The notes under the pieces are model-generated. The model was not told the origin of the DNA. It was given only the letters and a program-made list of their open reading frames with translations, and made no database searches. Position numbers and translations under genes: made by a program. From positions 749,517-813,516 of the forward strand of contig NZ_FWWY01000001.1 in the NCBI RefSeq assembly GCF_900176145.1: a DNA stretch of 64,000 nucleotides. Direction: 5' to 3'. Source of the stretch: Sulfobacillus thermosulfidooxidans DSM 9293 (GTDB lineage: Bacteria; Bacillota; Sulfobacillia; Sulfobacillales; Sulfobacillaceae). Shown piece after piece: positions 47,604 to 57,200 of this stretch. Each line of letters begins with the position of its first letter. The stretch's first letter is position 1.

Positions 47604-47789
47604 AAACGGTCCCTCCTTATCTTCTTGTAGATAGTGTGACTCTCTCATTCTTTCTTTATCCGGCTCCATGAGGTATAGCCAAAAAATTTTGCGGCACGCT
47701 ATTCCTACACCACAGATAGCAGGTTATTGCCTAAACCGCAGCCATTAGTCACCAACCCATTCAACCAAGAGAGGAGGCAAGGACCGATC

Positions 47790-48272
47790 ATGCTAAAAAG
47801 CCCCAAGACATGGATTGCTTTGATGGCATTCGTCACGTTCACCGCAGGATGTGGTCTTTATGGAGCAGGTGGACCCAACAACAATGTTCCTCGGGGAAAA
47901 GAAGGGCAACAACCCCAGGGTGTGACCGACGTGAATAATACCCGTAATCCCTTGTTGGATCACAAAACCAACCGGTCACGGGCTAAGAAAGTGTCGGCAG
48001 CCACCAAAACGCCGCAAAATCCTCAAGCCGTAAAAGCGGGTGCCATTGTCTTTCAAAGAGATTGCGCGTCTTGTCATGGACCCCAGGGTATTGGAACCAC
48101 CGGGGCTCCAAGACTAGCCGCTCCGAGTGGTGTGGTGTCCACCTTCGGGGATGTCGCCAAACTGAAGACCTTTATTGCCACACATATGCCGGCTAATCAT
48201 CCGGGAAGTCTGGATGCCAAAGACGCCACCACAGTATCACAATACGTTTGGCATATTGCTGAAGGCAAATAA
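47790..48272 (+). CDS. Lipoprotein cytochrome c, class I
   Basis: 160 residues. The N-terminus MLKSPKTWIALMAFVTFTAGC is a lipoprotein signal with a Cys at 21, so the protein is anchored outside the membrane. A Pro/Asn/Lys-rich linker leads to a small haem domain with CASCH and a probable axial methionine in THMPANHP. It could pass electrons to the terminal oxidase encoded nearby on the other strand. The start at 47790 has AAGGA 6 nt upstream. Confidence 0.88.
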   Translation: MLKSPKTWIALMAFVTFTAGCGLYGAGGPNNNVPRGKEGQQPQGVTDVNNTRNPLLDHKTNRSRAKKVSAATKTPQNPQAVKAGAIVFQRDCASCHGPQGIGTTGAPRLAAPSGVVSTFGDVAKLKTFIATHMPANHPGSLDAKDATTVSQYVWHIAEGK

Positions 48273-48327: not shown

Positions 48328-49176
48328 TTATCCCAATTGATTGATAAACAACGCCACAATGCCAACCAAATACGCCTGGTCAATGTGCTCTAACCATTTG
48401 AGATGAATAATGCGGCGAGGAAACGGCGTGATGAGACTAAGCCCGTTACTGATGAGATAGACGGCGCCTAACAGTAAACTTTCCAGCAAATACTCACGTT
48501 TCAAGGGATCCACATAATAAGGCAATAAACCCACGAGCGCGGTGAGAACTGACCACATTAACATGCGGGCTTTCAACCGCTCTTCTTCACGCGGAAAAGT
48601 TGTTTGGATTTTTTGGCAGTACTGGCTGTGCCACAGAAAATACATGTCGTGGATATAGGATTGTGCCCAAAGCCCCGGAATCACCAACAAAAGCAACATT
48701 TCCGCAAACCCTATATGATGACGTCCTATCATCAGACCTGCATAGGAGCTGACGATCCCAAGAAGACTCGCCGCAATGGCACCCCCGCGCCGCCGTCCCG
48801 GGTATCGCAGGGTAAGAATAGCCGTTATATTAAACATCCCTAAACTCAGCTGGGCCATCAAAGGACTCGAGGGCCACAAAGACAGCGTGGCCACAGCTTG
48901 TCCCCCGATGGCAATCGCCAAGAGTTTTCGTGGCAAAGGCGTATACGACGCTAACATCACTAATATCATGCTAACAAGAGATTCTGCCCAAGCCCACAAC
49001 ATGTTTGCCAGGGTAGGCCACCACCGGGACAACGGATAATGTCTTATGGCTATTAATACACTAATAGACCAAAGGACGGCGACAAATCCCCAAGAAAATC
49101 GTGTTAGCGGGGGTCTGTCGGGTCCTTGCGACCAGATCATCGGCGAGATTATCTGACGATTTTGCGAAATGTTCAC
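48328..49176 (-). CDS. Multi-pass membrane protein, last gene of the oxidase cluster
   Basis: 282 residues with about eight hydrophobic segments and no recognised domain. It sits where many oxidase operons have a CtaG-type copper chaperone, but I cannot see the histidine motifs of that family. Histidines occur as IGRHHIGF and YIHDMYFLWHSQY. It overlaps the preceding 69-codon gene by 4 bp (ATGA). A role in oxidase assembly is inference from position. Confidence 0.55.
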   Translation of the reverse strand: MNISQNRQIISPMIWSQGPDRPPLTRFSWGFVAVLWSISVLIAIRHYPLSRWWPTLANMLWAWAESLVSMILVMLASYTPLPRKLLAIAIGGQAVATLSLWPSSPLMAQLSLGMFNITAILTLRYPGRRRGGAIAASLLGIVSSYAGLMIGRHHIGFAEMLLLLVIPGLWAQSYIHDMYFLWHSQYCQKIQTTFPREEERLKARMLMWSVLTALVGLLPYYVDPLKREYLLESLLLGAVYLISNGLSLITPFPRRIIHLKWLEHIDQAYLVGIVALFINQLG

Positions 49177-49414: not shown

Positions 49415-49960
49415 TTAAATCCAATACAGAAACAAATAGGACAACAAGCTGCCAACCATTTGAAAGATCCAAAAATATAAAGCAGCATCAGCATCCCAGT
49501 GATATTCATCGGTAAACTGAACCCGTGCCGCCCGAAAACTGATGGCAATTAAGACAAAAATGCCCACGAGTTCATAAAAACCGGAGACACCTGTTAAGGT
49601 AAAATACACCTCTCCATAACGGGTGCCCGGGGGAATAAACCGCGTCCCCCATTGATAAGCCAAGATAAACAGTTGCAAGCTCCCTAATACGGCCGCACGG
49701 CGAAATCCCTGAACCATGTCCATGAGTCGATTGTGACGGATAGCCACAACGGCCTGCCACGCGATAAGCCCTGATAACAAATCCAGCAGAATTTCAGCGG
49801 CCCCTAACCAGCCGTTAACTTTGGGACTGACATAATACCCATCAAACATGTACCAGTCCGCAAAGATTAGGATGAACGGCACCGATTGACTGACCAAAAA
49901 TATTCGCAATCCCCAACGGTACGCCGCTAATTCCCGATCTTTCACATACGTTGCTGCCAT
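49415..49960 (-). CDS. Haem-copper oxidase subunit III
   Basis: 181 residues with five hydrophobic segments. The C-terminal pattern HWDADAALYFWIFQMVGSLLSYLFLYWI corresponds to the last segment of CoxC/CyoC (HxxxxxxxxYWHFVDxVW), though the usual W-H-F-V-D is changed to W-I-F-Q-M. The middle EVYFTLTGVSGFYELVG matches the H-F-T-G-x-H-x-x-H region with its histidines lost. The order after subunit I supports the assignment. Confidence 0.8.
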   Translation of the reverse strand: MAATYVKDRELAAYRWGLRIFLVSQSVPFILIFADWYMFDGYYVSPKVNGWLGAAEILLDLLSGLIAWQAVVAIRHNRLMDMVQGFRRAAVLGSLQLFILAYQWGTRFIPPGTRYGEVYFTLTGVSGFYELVGIFVLIAISFRAARVQFTDEYHWDADAALYFWIFQMVGSLLSYLFLYWI

Positions 49961-49975: not shown

Positions 49976-51847
49976 TTATTGTGATTCGGATGCATCCTTC
50001 ACCAAATATGCCGAGGGTTCGTCATGGTCATAGCGATAGAATCCCCGTACCACTTCGACTTCTCCGTCAAAGTTATTTTCGGGCGGCGGAGAGGTCGTCA
50101 ACCATTCCAGTGTCCGAGAATGCCAAGGATTTTCCGGGGCTTTAGGACCATTGCGCCAAGCCCAGATTATGTGAATCGCATGGGCAATAAAGCCTGCCCC
50201 GAGGAAGAAAGCAAAGAGAGAGACTTCGTAGTTCACCGGTTTTAAATACGGTGGATAAGCCGGTACCCAGCGGTTCATTCCGTCCAGTCCCAAAAGAAAC
50301 ATTTGACCAAACGTCCCATTGAACCCGATGAAAATCCAGATCGCTAACAGCTTGCCCCAGGTTTCGTTATACATGCGTCCAGAAAACTTCGGCAGCCAAT
50401 AATACATCGACGCAATCCATGTGAAAATCATGCCGCCAATGATGGTGTAATGGAAATGCGCGATAACAAAGAACGTATCGTGTACTTGCAAATTCACCGG
50501 CGGGTCTGCCAAATAAACTCCCGTCAATCCGCCAACCACGAAGTTGAACAAACTCATCAAAACCAACAGCGAAGGGGTAGTTAAACGCAGTCTAGCTTTC
50601 CATAATGTTCCAATTGCAGCCATAAACGAAAATCCGGTGGGAATAGAAATCATCTCGGTAAAGAACGCAAAGGGAAACATTTCACTGTTGCGCATATTGG
50701 TAAACATGTGGTGCGCCCAAACCAGCCCACTTAACATCATCACGAAAATCAACCCGATAATGGCCCAGTCCCGGGCAAATAAGTTTTTCTGCGCCATGAC
50801 CGGAATGATTTCGTTCCACATGGCAAAAGCCGGAAGCACGATAATGTAAACTTCAGGATGACCAAACAACCAGAACATGCTCAAGTAGGTTTCAGGACTG
50901 CCTAAAGCGTCCCAGAAGTGGAAAGGAATCAGCTTATCCAGTAACGCCATCACAAATGTCATTTCGATTTCCGGTTGCCAAATTAAATTGAGCAGGGAGA
51001 CCGTGAGAATACCCCACACAAACAAGGGCAAGCGGGCCCATGTCATTCCTTTCGCGCGGTGAAAGATAATCGTGGCAGACAAATTGACAGCCGATAAAAT
51101 CGTGGAAAAAGTCATCGCAAAGATCCCGAGATAGTAATACACCATACCGCCCGGATCTTGACTGGCTAGAGGCTCATATCCTCGCCACCCGGTATCCCAA
51201 TAGCCTAAGAGCGGACTAGCGATCAAGGTCAGAGCTCCGGCCGGTAAGAGCCAATGACCAATACCCGATAACCGGGAAAAGACAGTCCGTTTTGCGCCAA
51301 TCATTAGAGGCACAAAGTAATTGCCTAACCCCGAAATCATGGCCACAGTTCCTACCCCAAACATCATGAGCGATCCATGAATTCCGACCGCCGTCAAATA
51401 TTGGCCCACATAAGTAAAGAAATGCATGGACGGTTGCATCAGCTCATATCTCATAGCCATGGCATCAAGACCCGCAATCAGAAAGATTGAACTGGAGGAA
51501 AAGAGGTACTGAATGCCAATGACTTTATGATTGGTACTTAATCCAAAATACCGACGCCAATCTTTAGGCTCAACCCACGTGCTCGGAGAGCCAAATAGCG
51601 GCAAAATCATTTCTTCATAGCCGCCCACACCAAGGAGCCAACCTAATAACCCACCAACCCAACCGATCACTGCGGACGGCTCTGTCACTAAGGGATTTCC
51701 ACGGTAGGGATCAACCGCCACCGTAAAAAGGTCAAATACCACAAAACCTATCGTGGCCCAGATAAGCCCTCGTAACACAGGCGCCATCCGTAAGACTTTG
51801 GGTTGCGGATGGTTGCGAGGCTCGGCTTGTGCAATACGTTGTTCCAT
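49976..51847 (-). CDS. Haem-copper oxidase subunit I
   Basis: 623 residues from the ATG at 51847 (GGGAGG upstream). The haem and copper ligands are complete: low-spin haem His in GIHGSLMMF, His and Tyr in GHPEVY, the HH of VWAHHMF, and the two histidines of IAHFHY. Two proton-channel residues are not: where Paracoccus has PTGIKVF this has PTGFSF, giving Ser for the K-channel Lys; the D-channel Asp before the first haem ligand is also absent. The Glu of HPEVY is kept. An N-terminal extension of about 110 residues carries an extra hydrophobic segment. It is the catalytic subunit of a cytochrome c or cupredoxin oxidase. Confidence 0.95.
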   Translation of the reverse strand: MEQRIAQAEPRNHPQPKVLRMAPVLRGLIWATIGFVVFDLFTVAVDPYRGNPLVTEPSAVIGWVGGLLGWLLGVGGYEEMILPLFGSPSTWVEPKDWRRYFGLSTNHKVIGIQYLFSSSSIFLIAGLDAMAMRYELMQPSMHFFTYVGQYLTAVGIHGSLMMFGVGTVAMISGLGNYFVPLMIGAKRTVFSRLSGIGHWLLPAGALTLIASPLLGYWDTGWRGYEPLASQDPGGMVYYYLGIFAMTFSTILSAVNLSATIIFHRAKGMTWARLPLFVWGILTVSLLNLIWQPEIEMTFVMALLDKLIPFHFWDALGSPETYLSMFWLFGHPEVYIIVLPAFAMWNEIIPVMAQKNLFARDWAIIGLIFVMMLSGLVWAHHMFTNMRNSEMFPFAFFTEMISIPTGFSFMAAIGTLWKARLRLTTPSLLVLMSLFNFVVGGLTGVYLADPPVNLQVHDTFFVIAHFHYTIIGGMIFTWIASMYYWLPKFSGRMYNETWGKLLAIWIFIGFNGTFGQMFLLGLDGMNRWVPAYPPYLKPVNYEVSLFAFFLGAGFIAHAIHIIWAWRNGPKAPENPWHSRTLEWLTTSPPPENNFDGEVEVVRGFYRYDHDEPSAYLVKDASESQ

Positions 51848-51891
51848 TCTTCTTCCTCCCGTAAACAAGACCTAATCAATCATGTTGGTGT

Positions 51892-52704
51892 TTAAACGCC
51901 ACTCGCCTGGAGTTTCTTTTGATACGCAATCCACTGGGCAAACTGCTTTTGGGTCACCACGGAGACCGGCGCTTCCATATAGGGATGTCCGGGACCACAG
52001 ACCTCGGCACATTGCACCCGGACTAGGGGACTCGTCTTGAAATTGGCCACGTGATTGGGAACTAAAAATTCGGTGCGAGTTTCTCCGGGAATCACATCTT
52101 CTTTAATGCCAAACGCGGGAATCCAAAAACTATGGATCACGCCAGCGTAGACATCATAGGTATGGAAAGGGTCATAACTTCTTAAAAAGAACTCAACGGG
52201 CCGGTTCACCGGTAATTCCATTTCATCCAGGCCCTGGGCATTAACCGCTTGTTTAATCCCATATTGGGGATAGCTAAAAATCCATTCCCATTGTCTTGCT
52301 GTCACATTGACAATTAATGGATTCTGCTTTTTTTCTTGTCGCCAGTTGGTAAACATGGCTTCGAGGTCAACAGAGGTCGGATGCAGCCAGAACATAATAT
52401 TTAACAGAAAACTCGCGGCCACCCAGAAAAAGATGTACCATTTGTTACGCATGGCTTGCACCAAACTTGGTTTGGGTTCATTAGTGGGGGCCCGAAAACG
52501 AATTAACGTGTAAATGACCATCAAAGCCACAAAGATGAATATGGGCATCAGCCAAGAAGACAAAAAGTTAAAGGCGCTTAAAGCGATACTGCCCTGGTTG
52601 GATATGGTGTAATACATGGAATGGGCGCGAATAGATCGAAACCAGATTTCTCCCAGTGTCGTGAGGATTCCCCAAATCACGACGAAAACAATAGCATCTC
52701 CCAC
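51892..52704 (-). CDS. Haem-copper oxidase subunit II
   Basis: 270 residues from the GTG at 52704, after AAAGGAGGCAG. Three or so hydrophobic segments are followed by an extracellular cupredoxin domain. The CuA site is intact: a histidine in VIHSFWIPAFG and the motif CAEVCGPGHPYM giving two Cys, His and Met. It receives electrons from a soluble donor. It precedes subunit I by 44 bp. Confidence 0.95.
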   Translation of the reverse strand: MGDAIVFVVIWGILTTLGEIWFRSIRAHSMYYTISNQGSIALSAFNFLSSWLMPIFIFVALMVIYTLIRFRAPTNEPKPSLVQAMRNKWYIFFWVAASFLLNIMFWLHPTSVDLEAMFTNWRQEKKQNPLIVNVTARQWEWIFSYPQYGIKQAVNAQGLDEMELPVNRPVEFFLRSYDPFHTYDVYAGVIHSFWIPAFGIKEDVIPGETRTEFLVPNHVANFKTSPLVRVQCAEVCGPGHPYMEAPVSVVTQKQFAQWIAYQKKLQASGV

Positions 52705-52748
52705 CGTACTGCCTCCTTTCAACGCCGCACATGCGTGCTAACACGGTC

Positions 52749-53384
52749 TCATGCCGGCAGAATATTGATTAAACCCTGCATGCCATCACGGTAGTGAATG
52801 AACTCCTGGACAAAACACCCGAAGTGCCAAAGTCCTGGTTTGTTGGGCACCGTAAACGTTAATTTCAAACTGCCACCGGGTTGCAAAGTGGGACTAAAAT
52901 CGCCGCCCGTTGTAATTTGGTAAGGACCTTTCGGTCCCACATAGGTCACATGGGCCTTATTCGGAACAAAGTTGTCGATTTTATAGGGGTCACTCAAGGT
53001 CACATCAACGCCATCCCAAAAATCAATCGCCCAGGCATCGGCATCCATGTAGCCAAATCCTTGAAAATAATCCATATTCAGCTTTCGCCCGATGGTCCAT
53101 TCATGCCAATGGGTGTGACTTTGGTTTTGCAAAGTAACTTCAAGCTTGTCTCCTACTCGCCACGTCATATAGTTGGGAATGTAGTAATAATCGAATTGAT
53201 ATAGGTTGATTTTTCCTGAACTGACCGGGGATCCCACAAGATTTCGCGCCAAACTGACAATCTGCGGCTTGGCAAAGAGTGAAATTAACGCGGCTGCCGT
53301 GACTCCGACTCCGCCCCAAATCACTTGTCGTCTATTCCACTGTTGCTGCAAAATACCAGTGGGTTCGTGATTTTCCACATCCAT
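52749..53384 (-). CDS. Tat-exported cupredoxin
   Basis: 211 residues from the ATG at 53384. The N-terminus has twin arginines and a hydrophobic stretch (NRRQVIWGGVGVTAAAL), as in a Tat signal or a Tat-dependent anchor. The mature part is a beta-rich cupredoxin. Copper ligands visible are His in SHTHWHEW and the C-terminal loop FGCFVQEFIHYRDGM, that is Cys, six residues, His, four residues, Met. It is first, or second, in the oxidase operon and is a candidate electron donor like sulfocyanin or rusticyanin in iron-oxidising acidophiles. Confidence 0.82.
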   Translation of the reverse strand: MDVENHEPTGILQQQWNRRQVIWGGVGVTAAALISLFAKPQIVSLARNLVGSPVSSGKINLYQFDYYYIPNYMTWRVGDKLEVTLQNQSHTHWHEWTIGRKLNMDYFQGFGYMDADAWAIDFWDGVDVTLSDPYKIDNFVPNKAHVTYVGPKGPYQITTGGDFSPTLQPGGSLKLTFTVPNKPGLWHFGCFVQEFIHYRDGMQGLINILPA

Positions 53385-53451
53385 CACCTTTCCTTCGTGC
53401 CATACGAGCCCTTCAGACACACCTAAAACACAGTGTCTTAAAGGACTGCTG

Positions 53452-55698: not shown

Positions 55699-57200
55699 AT
55701 GAATGGGGGTGGGGTTCACGACCCCACGAGGCGGCGCATCCGCTCCGGTTGCCGTTGCCGTATCCGCCCGAGCGCCATCGCCAACATCACGATGAGGGCC
55801 AACCCGCAGCGGAGTTGCATTTTCTTTAGCCCCCGAATGGTATGGAGTTCCAACCCGAACGACACATCCAACCGACTGTTCACCCGTTCCACCGCCGTGC
55901 GATGGGCATACTCGCGCTTCCATTGATAACTGGCCCGGTCCATGGGCGTAAAAATCCGCCGATCGGTCTGTAAGGGAATGCGCAGGCCCTGGACGACGGG
56001 GCAGGTGTCTTGACCCCGGCAGGACACGCCCGCAAAGCGGGCGGGGCACCGCTTTTTGAGACGTTGGCGCCTGACTTCGAATCCGCCGTTACTCATGGTG
56101 TGAACCTGACCCGTGACCGGATCCTGACAAAAGACGTCGCCACGATAATTGTAGGTCACCGTCGAATGGCCCGGTAGCACTCGCGTGGCATCCGGGTCCC
56201 GCCACATATTCCGGATATCGATCACCGGCTTAATCTGGTAGCTATCCCAGCAGGCGGCGATCAATTTGGTATCATCATAGCCCCGGTCGGCCGTTAAAAG
56301 GACGGCACGGGACAGCAGCACCCCGTGGCGATGGTGCAGATGATCCAACATGGGCATCGCCCGGGTCACATCGGACACCGACGCTTTCGTCACCTCCCAC
56401 GCCACCGGCAATTCGTACGTCGAATCCACCACCAGGTGCAGCTTATACCCGAACCACTTGACCACTTTGGTCCAGGTAGTCCCGTCCTCATGCACACCGC
56501 GGTATTCCTTCCGTCCAAAATCGGCATCGACGTCCCGGCGCCCATCGGCGGTGGGGTTTTTGGCGGGCCGCACGGCCCGCGACGAGATACCCTTGCTGTC
56601 CATGGCCAAGCGCTGACCGAAATTCGGGAGCACGGCGGCGAGGTCATCCACCAGCTGCTCAAACATCCCGTCCACGGTATCCTGTTCGGCCATCAGACGA
56701 TGCAGAAATCGGGTGTAGGCCGACGCGGGCGGGACGGCCGCGTTGCGGAACCCGCACAGCATGCGCAGTTGCGCATTGCGGGCCAGTTCTCGGCGAAGGC
56801 TCTCGATGCTGGGGTGTTGGAAAACCACCCCGGCCAACACCGAATTCCACATCGCCCGGACCGGGTACGCATTCCGCCCATGCCCACGGGCGGCTTCCAG
56901 GTGGGCCATGAGGGTTTCATCCGGGACCGTCTCGAGGACGAGCACGAGGCGTTCGAGGTCGCCTAATTCTTCGAGATCTTGCCACGAAAAGAGAGAAAGT
57001 TGTGGTATGATAGCCATACGGGAGAGCTCCTTTCGGAAAATTGTGGTTGGTACTTCAATTTTACCAGAGCTCGGCCCGTTTTTCTTAGGGTTTTGCGGGT
57101 TTCGGGGATCGCGGCACGGTGTGCCGCGGGTGGGGTCAAATCGGCCGCCGGCGGCCGACCGGGAACCGAAAAGCCGCATTCCTCCGTCCATGAATGGGGG
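55699..57200. mobile_element. GC-rich DDE insertion sequence, ends not certain
   Basis: A single transposase gene in a block much richer in GC than its neighbours. The 11-bp direct repeat ATGAATGGGGG occurs at 55699-55709 and 57190-57200 and could be a target duplication. Convincing terminal inverted repeats were not found; a perfect palindrome around 57141-57158 lies near the right end. Insertion is between tRNA-Tyr and a small membrane gene. Confidence 0.5.
55716..57017 (-). CDS. DDE transposase (IS1182/IS5-like)
   Basis: 433 residues from the ATG at 57017 (AAGGAG upstream). The N-terminal helical domain (DUF772-like) contains RELARNAQLRMLCGF. Catalytic residues in order: Asp in AMDSKGISS, Asp in LLTADRGYDD, and Glu in YAHRTAVERVNSRL. 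A cysteine-rich insertion (KRCPARFAGVSCRGQDTC) lies before the last motif. The frame is intact, so the element may still be mobile. GC content and codon choice differ strongly from neighbours, suggesting recent arrival. Confidence 0.9.
   Translation of the reverse strand: MAIIPQLSLFSWQDLEELGDLERLVLVLETVPDETLMAHLEAARGHGRNAYPVRAMWNSVLAGVVFQHPSIESLRRELARNAQLRMLCGFRNAAVPPASAYTRFLHRLMAEQDTVDGMFEQLVDDLAAVLPNFGQRLAMDSKGISSRAVRPAKNPTADGRRDVDADFGRKEYRGVHEDGTTWTKVVKWFGYKLHLVVDSTYELPVAWEVTKASVSDVTRAMPMLDHLHHRHGVLLSRAVLLTADRGYDDTKLIAACWDSYQIKPVIDIRNMWRDPDATRVLPGHSTVTYNYRGDVFCQDPVTGQVHTMSNGGFEVRRQRLKKRCPARFAGVSCRGQDTCPVVQGLRIPLQTDRRIFTPMDRASYQWKREYAHRTAVERVNSRLDVSFGLELHTIRGLKKMQLRCGLALIVMLAMALGRIRQRQPERMRRLVGS

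Follow-up and report, generated by a model that had tools for sequence, protein, structure and literature searches.

In the canonical bacterial oxidases, the D path carries the pumped protons, and substrate protons are taken up via both the D and K paths (PMC6934443). Pumping becomes decoupled when Asp132, Asn121, or Asn139 is mutated (PMC4321873; PMC6934443), and a change of the Asp conserved at the A-propionate of haem a3 has the same effect (PMC4321873). How these oxidases couple O2 chemistry to pumping, and which of their parts are needed for it, is debated, mostly on the basis of crippled laboratory mutants. The R. sphaeroides laboratory mutants D132A and K362M are of this crippled kind. 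The aa3 oxidase of Acidianus ambivalens and the oxidase of Rhodothermus marinus have altered D and K residues and are reported to pump.

Among iron oxidizers, one of the closest described systems is the AcoP-associated CoxBACD aa3 oxidase encoded by the rus operon of Acidithiobacillus ferrooxidans, which shares with the oxidase described here the AcoP-CoxB-CoxA-CoxC order, CuA, a role in downhill Fe(II) oxidation, and, in the proteobacterial relatives, two extra N-terminal helices. Binding of AcoP maintains the activity of the At. ferrooxidans oxidase, AcoP homologues beside oxidase genes have already been noted in Sulfobacillus, and the iron-oxidizer pathway has been called poorly energetic (PMC4059628). 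The deep-branching "2TM" COX1 clade (Degli Esposti et al. 2021, PMC8239418) likewise has two additional N-terminal transmembrane helices and a distribution among iron oxidizers; the archaeal COX1 tree of that article records K-channel variants and losses, and neither Sulfobacillus, nor lysine, nor a compensating Glu is mentioned in its main text. The 2TM iron-oxidizer clade and the K-channel losses in family A are therefore already published there, as is the AcoP link in PMC4059628. We found no prior account of a coordinated loss across both subunits, of the compensating Glu motif, of the Trp swap, or of the agreement between channel state and type of electron donor inside one genome, some of which the supplement of PMC8239418 may hold.

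The oxidase genes lie in the window, the whole 64,000-nucleotide stretch of Sulfobacillus thermosulfidooxidans DSM 9293 DNA that was analysed; unlike At. ferrooxidans CoxBACD, this oxidase belongs to a Firmicute. Subunit I (COX1/CoxA; 49976–51868, minus strand; 630 aa; PF00115, E = 4.6e-111) starts at a TTG codon, and the start given in the original prediction (51847) is an internal ATG. Subunit II (COX2/CoxB; 51892–52722, minus strand; PF00116, E = 4.3e-9) contains the full CuA ligand motif (HSFWIPAFGIK and CAEVCGPGHPYM) expected of a cytochrome c oxidase, and a short subunit III (COX3/CoxC; 49415–49960, minus strand; PF00510, E = 4.4e-6) was also found. The gene upstream of subunit II encodes an AcoP-like membrane cupredoxin (52749–53420, minus strand), which matched the AcoP structure 7z3b (phmmer, E = 7.5e-23) and showed by alignment the copper loop C-x6-H-x4-M defined for AcoP (PMC4059628). 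A c-type cytochrome with a CASCH motif (47727–48272, plus strand; PF13442, E = 2.2e-8) is a divergent neighbour and a candidate electron donor; it corresponds by gene order to Sulth_0840, and the order of the c cytochrome and subunits III, I, and II is that of Sulth_0840–0845 of S. thermosulfidooxidans. Downstream of subunit III, a 282-aa membrane protein without a Pfam or NCBIfam match (48328–49176, minus strand) is a possible assembly factor. An ORF resembling an insertion-sequence transposase (55716–57191, minus strand) is located near the oxidase region. Subunit I is the catalytic subunit of a cytochrome c oxidase of the CuA type that belongs to the family A branch of acidophilic iron oxidizers and is encoded in an AcoP-CoxBAC operon.

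The AlphaFold2 model of subunit I (pLDDT 84.9, pTM 0.89) had an R. sphaeroides oxidase as its top structural match (Z = 48.7, rmsd 2.0 Å over 496 residues), and the model placed two extra N-terminal transmembrane helices at residues 30–52 and 63–91, as described for the 2TM iron-oxidizer clade. The original prediction stated that all haem and copper ligands and the Glu and Tyr of HPEVY were present, and a codon-level check agreed, identifying H164, H337, H386, H387, H471, and H473 as the complete ligand set together with E339 and Y341. The oxygen chemistry site is intact. The six His ligands and the cross-link Tyr in helix VI are those of family A, and the Tyr lies in the helix VI HPEVY motif rather than in helix VII as in C-type (cbb3) enzymes. 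In the tree, subunit I was nested among A-type sequences, beside a cyanobacterial COX1 with weak support (87). For the A1 subtype of the Pereira classification, the Glu of HPEVY in which the D channel ends was present (E339), whereas the D-channel residues Asp124 and Asn131 (PMC3084760) were replaced by R194 and S201, and of the K-channel residues Lys354, Thr351, and Ser291, Thr alone was kept, with S414 and N352 at the other two positions; these correspond to positions 132 and 139 and positions 362, 359, and 299 in R. sphaeroides. The alternative K channel of B-type enzymes (Thr, Ser, and Tyr) was not present either, as the corresponding residues were Ser, Thr, and Asn. Canonical positions are hereafter numbered as in R. 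sphaeroides (Rs), via alignment to the PDB sequence. The window enzyme shares the fold, ligands, HPEVY motif, and CuA of the canonical A1 aa3 oxidases of R. sphaeroides and P. denitrificans, but lacks Asp132, Asn139, Lys362, Ser365, Trp366, and subunit II Glu101. The R. sphaeroides mutants D132A (3omi) and K362M (3om3) were among the top structural matches, and the window enzyme can be considered a natural counterpart of both.

The K-channel lysine had been predicted to be a serine, and Ser414 (50627–50629, minus strand; codon TCG) indeed occupies the Lys362 position. Lys was absent from this position in all 55 Firmicutes relatives, a set that comprised Sulfobacillus, Sulfoacidibacillus, Ferroacidibacillus, some Alicyclobacillus, and Bacillota MAGs and included the window protein and its paralogues; Ala was found in 42 of them, and Phe, Val, or Met in proteobacteria. 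The loss is thus more than a chance change in a single sequence. Alignment to R. sphaeroides further revealed Ser365 to Ala, Trp366 to Ala, and Ser299 to Asn in subunit I, while Thr359 and Tyr288 were kept. The loss of the Lys is backed by the loss of its partner Glu in subunit II: Ile97 (52432–52434, minus strand; codon ATC) replaces the K-channel entrance residue Glu101, and Ile, Val, or Thr was found there in 50 of 50 Firmicutes and four of four proteobacteria, compared with Glu in 11 of 11 canonical partners. The lining of the K channel includes positions 315, 356, 363, 365, and 366 (PMC10341450). Trp366 was present in all 36 sequences of the canonical comparison set, in which Lys362 was present by construction, and in none of the 62 Lys-less sequences, whereas Trp was found at position 315 in 53 of the 62 and in none of the 36. 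Ile/Val363 was replaced by Tyr or Phe in all Firmicutes and proteobacterial Lys-less sequences. With aromatics at these cavity-lining positions, the K channel looks re-packed, which goes beyond the loss of one lysine.

At the mouth of the D channel, Arg194 (51287–51289, minus strand; codon CGG) occupies the Asp132 position. The D-channel Asp was thus absent as originally predicted, but its place was mistaken: it belongs to the IGAxD motif, which follows the first haem ligand at a distance of about 30 residues, and does not lie 12 residues before that ligand. None of the 55 Firmicutes had Asp here, in contrast to 22 of the 22 non-clade sequences aligned; the residues found were Glu (18), Ser (16), Arg (6), Thr (6), Gly (5), Lys (2), Asn (1), and His (1). 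The S. thermotolerans orthologue (L007:6010–7881, 87% identical) carries Glu where the window protein has Arg, and the D-channel mouth therefore changes between close species. Ser201 (51266–51268, minus strand; codon TCG) replaces Asn139 of the "asparagine gate" and is Ser in 55 of 55 Firmicutes relatives. Subunit I retained Tyr33, Asn121, Ser200, Asn207, Glu286, Trp172, and Arg481, and the interior of the channel (Tyr33, Asn121, Ser200, Asn207, and Glu286) was almost fully conserved in Firmicutes, which argues that some use of the D path remains. The interior was further decayed in the four gammaproteobacterial relatives aligned. The window protein also has Trp in place of Arg482. Asp407 was replaced by Asn, as in 52 of the 55 Firmicutes; it is probably the equivalent of the decoupling A-propionate Asp mentioned above. 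R. sphaeroides Asp407 mutants still pump, and little weight was therefore placed on this change. The alignment revealed no shift of the Lys or Asp to neighbouring positions, with Glu at the Asp site in 18 of the 55 relatives, and no complete K or D pathway could be traced in the sequence of the window protein, so neither of the findings that would have contradicted the original prediction was obtained. A sequencing or frame artefact was ruled out, as the same change occurred in orthologues and paralogues. Two further candidate pathways were considered. Firmicutes lack the His456 and Gln471 equivalents of the H pathway, but canonical enzymes also vary at Gln471 and the picture in the proteobacterial relatives is different, so we make no claim about this pathway; a Ser/Asn ladder in helix IX was dropped as a new K channel because Asn390 is Thr in half of the canonical enzymes.

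Two glutamates were gained. Glu405 in helix VIII (Rs Met353; 50654–50656, minus strand; codon GAG) is the Glu of a TExxSxPTG motif and a candidate compensating proton carrier. Glu was found at position 353 in all 62 Lys-less family A sequences (55 Firmicutes, four proteobacteria, and three Thermoplasmata) and in none of the 36 containing Lys, and Ser was found at position 356 in 62 of 62 and four of 36, respectively. Outside these sets, thaumarchaeal sequences with His at 362 had Leu at 353, and two divergent Thermoplasmata sequences with Thr at 362 had Phe at 353. Glu300 in helix V (Rs Val245; 50969–50971, minus strand; codon GAA) was Glu in 55 of 55 Firmicutes and three of three Thermoplasmata Lys-less sequences, but not in the proteobacterial ones. 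We infer a proton role for Glu405.

Lys and Asp were both absent in the four gammaproteobacterial relatives (41–44% identity), which formed one clade with the Firmicutes (support 100). The Thermoplasmata grouped apart on a long branch, and a single origin was not rejected (AU p = 0.465). With one or two origins, the association of Glu with Lys loss does not amount to 62 independent cases. The 839-aa Thermoplasmata COX1 proteins (L113, L114, and L119) keep Asp132 and Asn139, lack Lys362, have Glu in place of Asn207, and contain both the helix V and helix VIII glutamates, which is a different mix of channel changes. A search for plasmid-borne relatives gave no match of at least 60% identity (the matches listed had 36–40%), and a DNA pattern search across the phylum retrieved, among 299, no matching family besides the source genome's own.

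The source genome contains six COX1 genes, of which five are channel-less; the operons of these five also encode an AcoP-like cupredoxin and a subunit II that bears CuA. In all five operons, the AcoP-like protein (52749–53420 in the window) has an N-terminal SRRQ or NRRQ segment followed by a hydrophobic stretch. The sixth COX1 (C1:1981743) has Asp132, Asn139, Lys362, and the subunit II Glu; its subunit II lacks the CuA motif, and it therefore looks like a quinol oxidase. Five Sulth COX1 locus tags were linear with genome position (r = 0.9997), and from gene order and position we infer that the window COX1 is Sulth_0844 and that Sulth_1932 is the channel-complete oxidase. In the available part of a bioleaching transcriptome study (PMC6315122), Sulth_0450, 0488, 0844, and 1514 were higher without a strong iron oxidizer, when S. 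thermosulfidooxidans oxidizes iron itself, and Sulth_1932 was approximately 10-fold higher with a strong iron oxidizer present, when sulfur genes also rose. These transcripts cover four of the five channel-less loci, C1:913941 being the fifth. The authors (Christel et al.) asked which structural differences lie behind the opposite regulation of the oxidases, and the proton channels are a concrete candidate answer. The channel-less clade offers natural enzymes with both input channels gone, beside a channel-complete oxidase in the same cell, and a testable bioenergetic rule in which the channels are kept with a quinol donor and lost with an iron donor.

The AcoP partner gene ties the operon to the Fe(II) chain. 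Alicyclobacillaceae are a family of acidophiles, and among 41 of their genomes, nine had the channel-less oxidase and nine had a strong rusticyanin-like match; seven had both, two had only the former, two had only the latter, and 30 had neither (Fisher p = 5e-5, kinship ignored). The rusticyanin-like cut-off (E < 1e-20, next match 2e-8) was set after the gap was seen, and the matches fall below the curated cut-off of the family. Acidophily alone as the cause is weakened by the presence of the oxidase in just nine of the 41 genomes; together with the channel-complete quinol oxidase in the same genome, this indicates that a steep pH gradient alone does not explain the loss. The co-occurrence with the rusticyanin-like protein favours iron oxidation over low pH as its correlate. 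The original prediction proposed that the enzyme takes protons by another path or does not pump fully, which could make sense in a cell facing a steep inward pH gradient. Its first part accords with our preferred reading; as for the reason, the electron donor is the better predictor.

With pH 2 outside and pH 6.5 inside assumed, the drop from Fe(II) (0.77 V) to O2 was calculated to be approximately 0.33 V, while moving one charge per electron costs approximately 0.26 V and two cost 0.51 V (proton motive force of approximately 0.26 V). The drop covers one charge but not two; pumping from iron would therefore be unaffordable at full proton motive force, whereas the use of cytoplasmic protons would be affordable. 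In sequence, both channel inputs are dismantled. The best explanation, to which we assign a probability of roughly 55%, is an oxidase that pumps weakly or not at all, in keeping with the small energy drop between Fe(II) and O2. Electrons from Fe(II) would pass via a high-potential cytochrome c and/or AcoP to CuA, and O2 reduction would use about one cytoplasmic proton per electron with little or no extra pumping. Substrate protons may, on weaker grounds, travel through the surviving D-path interior to Glu339 and through a helix VIII relay of Glu405, Ser408, and Thr411 near CuB and the cross-linked Tyr. We put forward only tentatively the wider proposal that the oxidases of acidophilic iron oxidizers are a class uncoupled by nature. 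Both classical channels would have been taken apart across two subunits, a new relay around the invariant helix VIII Glu (TExxSxPTG) would have taken their place, and Glu gain and Lys loss would be linked to how little energy Fe(II) yields.

Normal pumping by a rerouted path, with other residues compensating for the lost Lys and Asp, is unlikely. The Acidianus and Rhodothermus oxidases, likened to the window enzyme by description, share altered D and K residues and are reported to pump, and the conserved D-channel interior and Glu286, the polar residues gained (Gln120, Glu300, Glu405, and Ser408), and the Glu at the D mouth in 18 of 55 relatives fit such a path. However, residues at the mouth vary without restriction (E, S, R, T, G, K, N, and H), the Asn139 position is uniformly Ser, the subunit II Glu is gone, and two charges per electron (approximately 0.5 V) exceed the 0.33 V drop. 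It is somewhat less probable still that the enzyme, like cNOR, takes its protons from the acidic exterior, with non-electrogenic turnover and a helix VIII Glu acting like that of nitric oxide reductase. Glu405 lies three residues (approximately one turn) before the site that the NOR motif HHx(Arom)(Arom)x17E predicts (PMC3084760), and a D132N oxidase was interpreted as turning over on protons leaking back via the exit path (PMC4321873); but the helix VIII register is not identical, such an enzyme would give up the sole energy conserved from iron, and Glu286 and much of the D interior are retained in Firmicutes.

A lysine-free K channel of the B-type kind, in which Ser414, Thr411, and Asn352 stand for Lys, Thr, and Ser, is very doubtful. 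The window protein has a polar residue at each of these sites, and B-type K channels without Lys have been described (PMC3084760), but the Lys site is Ala in most Firmicutes relatives and Phe, Val, or Met in proteobacteria, Ile, Val, or Thr stands in for the entrance Glu of subunit II, and Trp315 and Phe/Tyr363 fill cavity-lining positions. Scarcely credible is a decaying or non-functional paralogue: although the window COX1 is the lowest-expressed among those listed in PMC6315122, its transcript is regulated 12-fold, the ORF is intact with all ligands kept, 87% identical orthologues occur in other Sulfobacillus, and the same losses are found in every channel-less paralogue, including highly expressed ones. 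Unlike the crippled R. sphaeroides mutants, the channel-less clade persists in nature.

Two further observations were made. In two proteobacterial operons (L122:3797–4468; also L123), the AcoP homologue no longer has its copper-binding Cys and His (CYTSFLQAGFQYMNNM), and a neighbour resembling rusticyanin (L122:9317–10090; also L123) seems to lack its ligands (YYYLSMQPGNAAGGQWG). Two nearly identical channel-less oxidase operons (L078:5732–10362 and L079:3466–8556) are located far apart in the genome; they are 96% identical overall, but along COX1 the identity ranges patchily from 1.00 to 0.83, a pattern suggestive of duplication and gene conversion.
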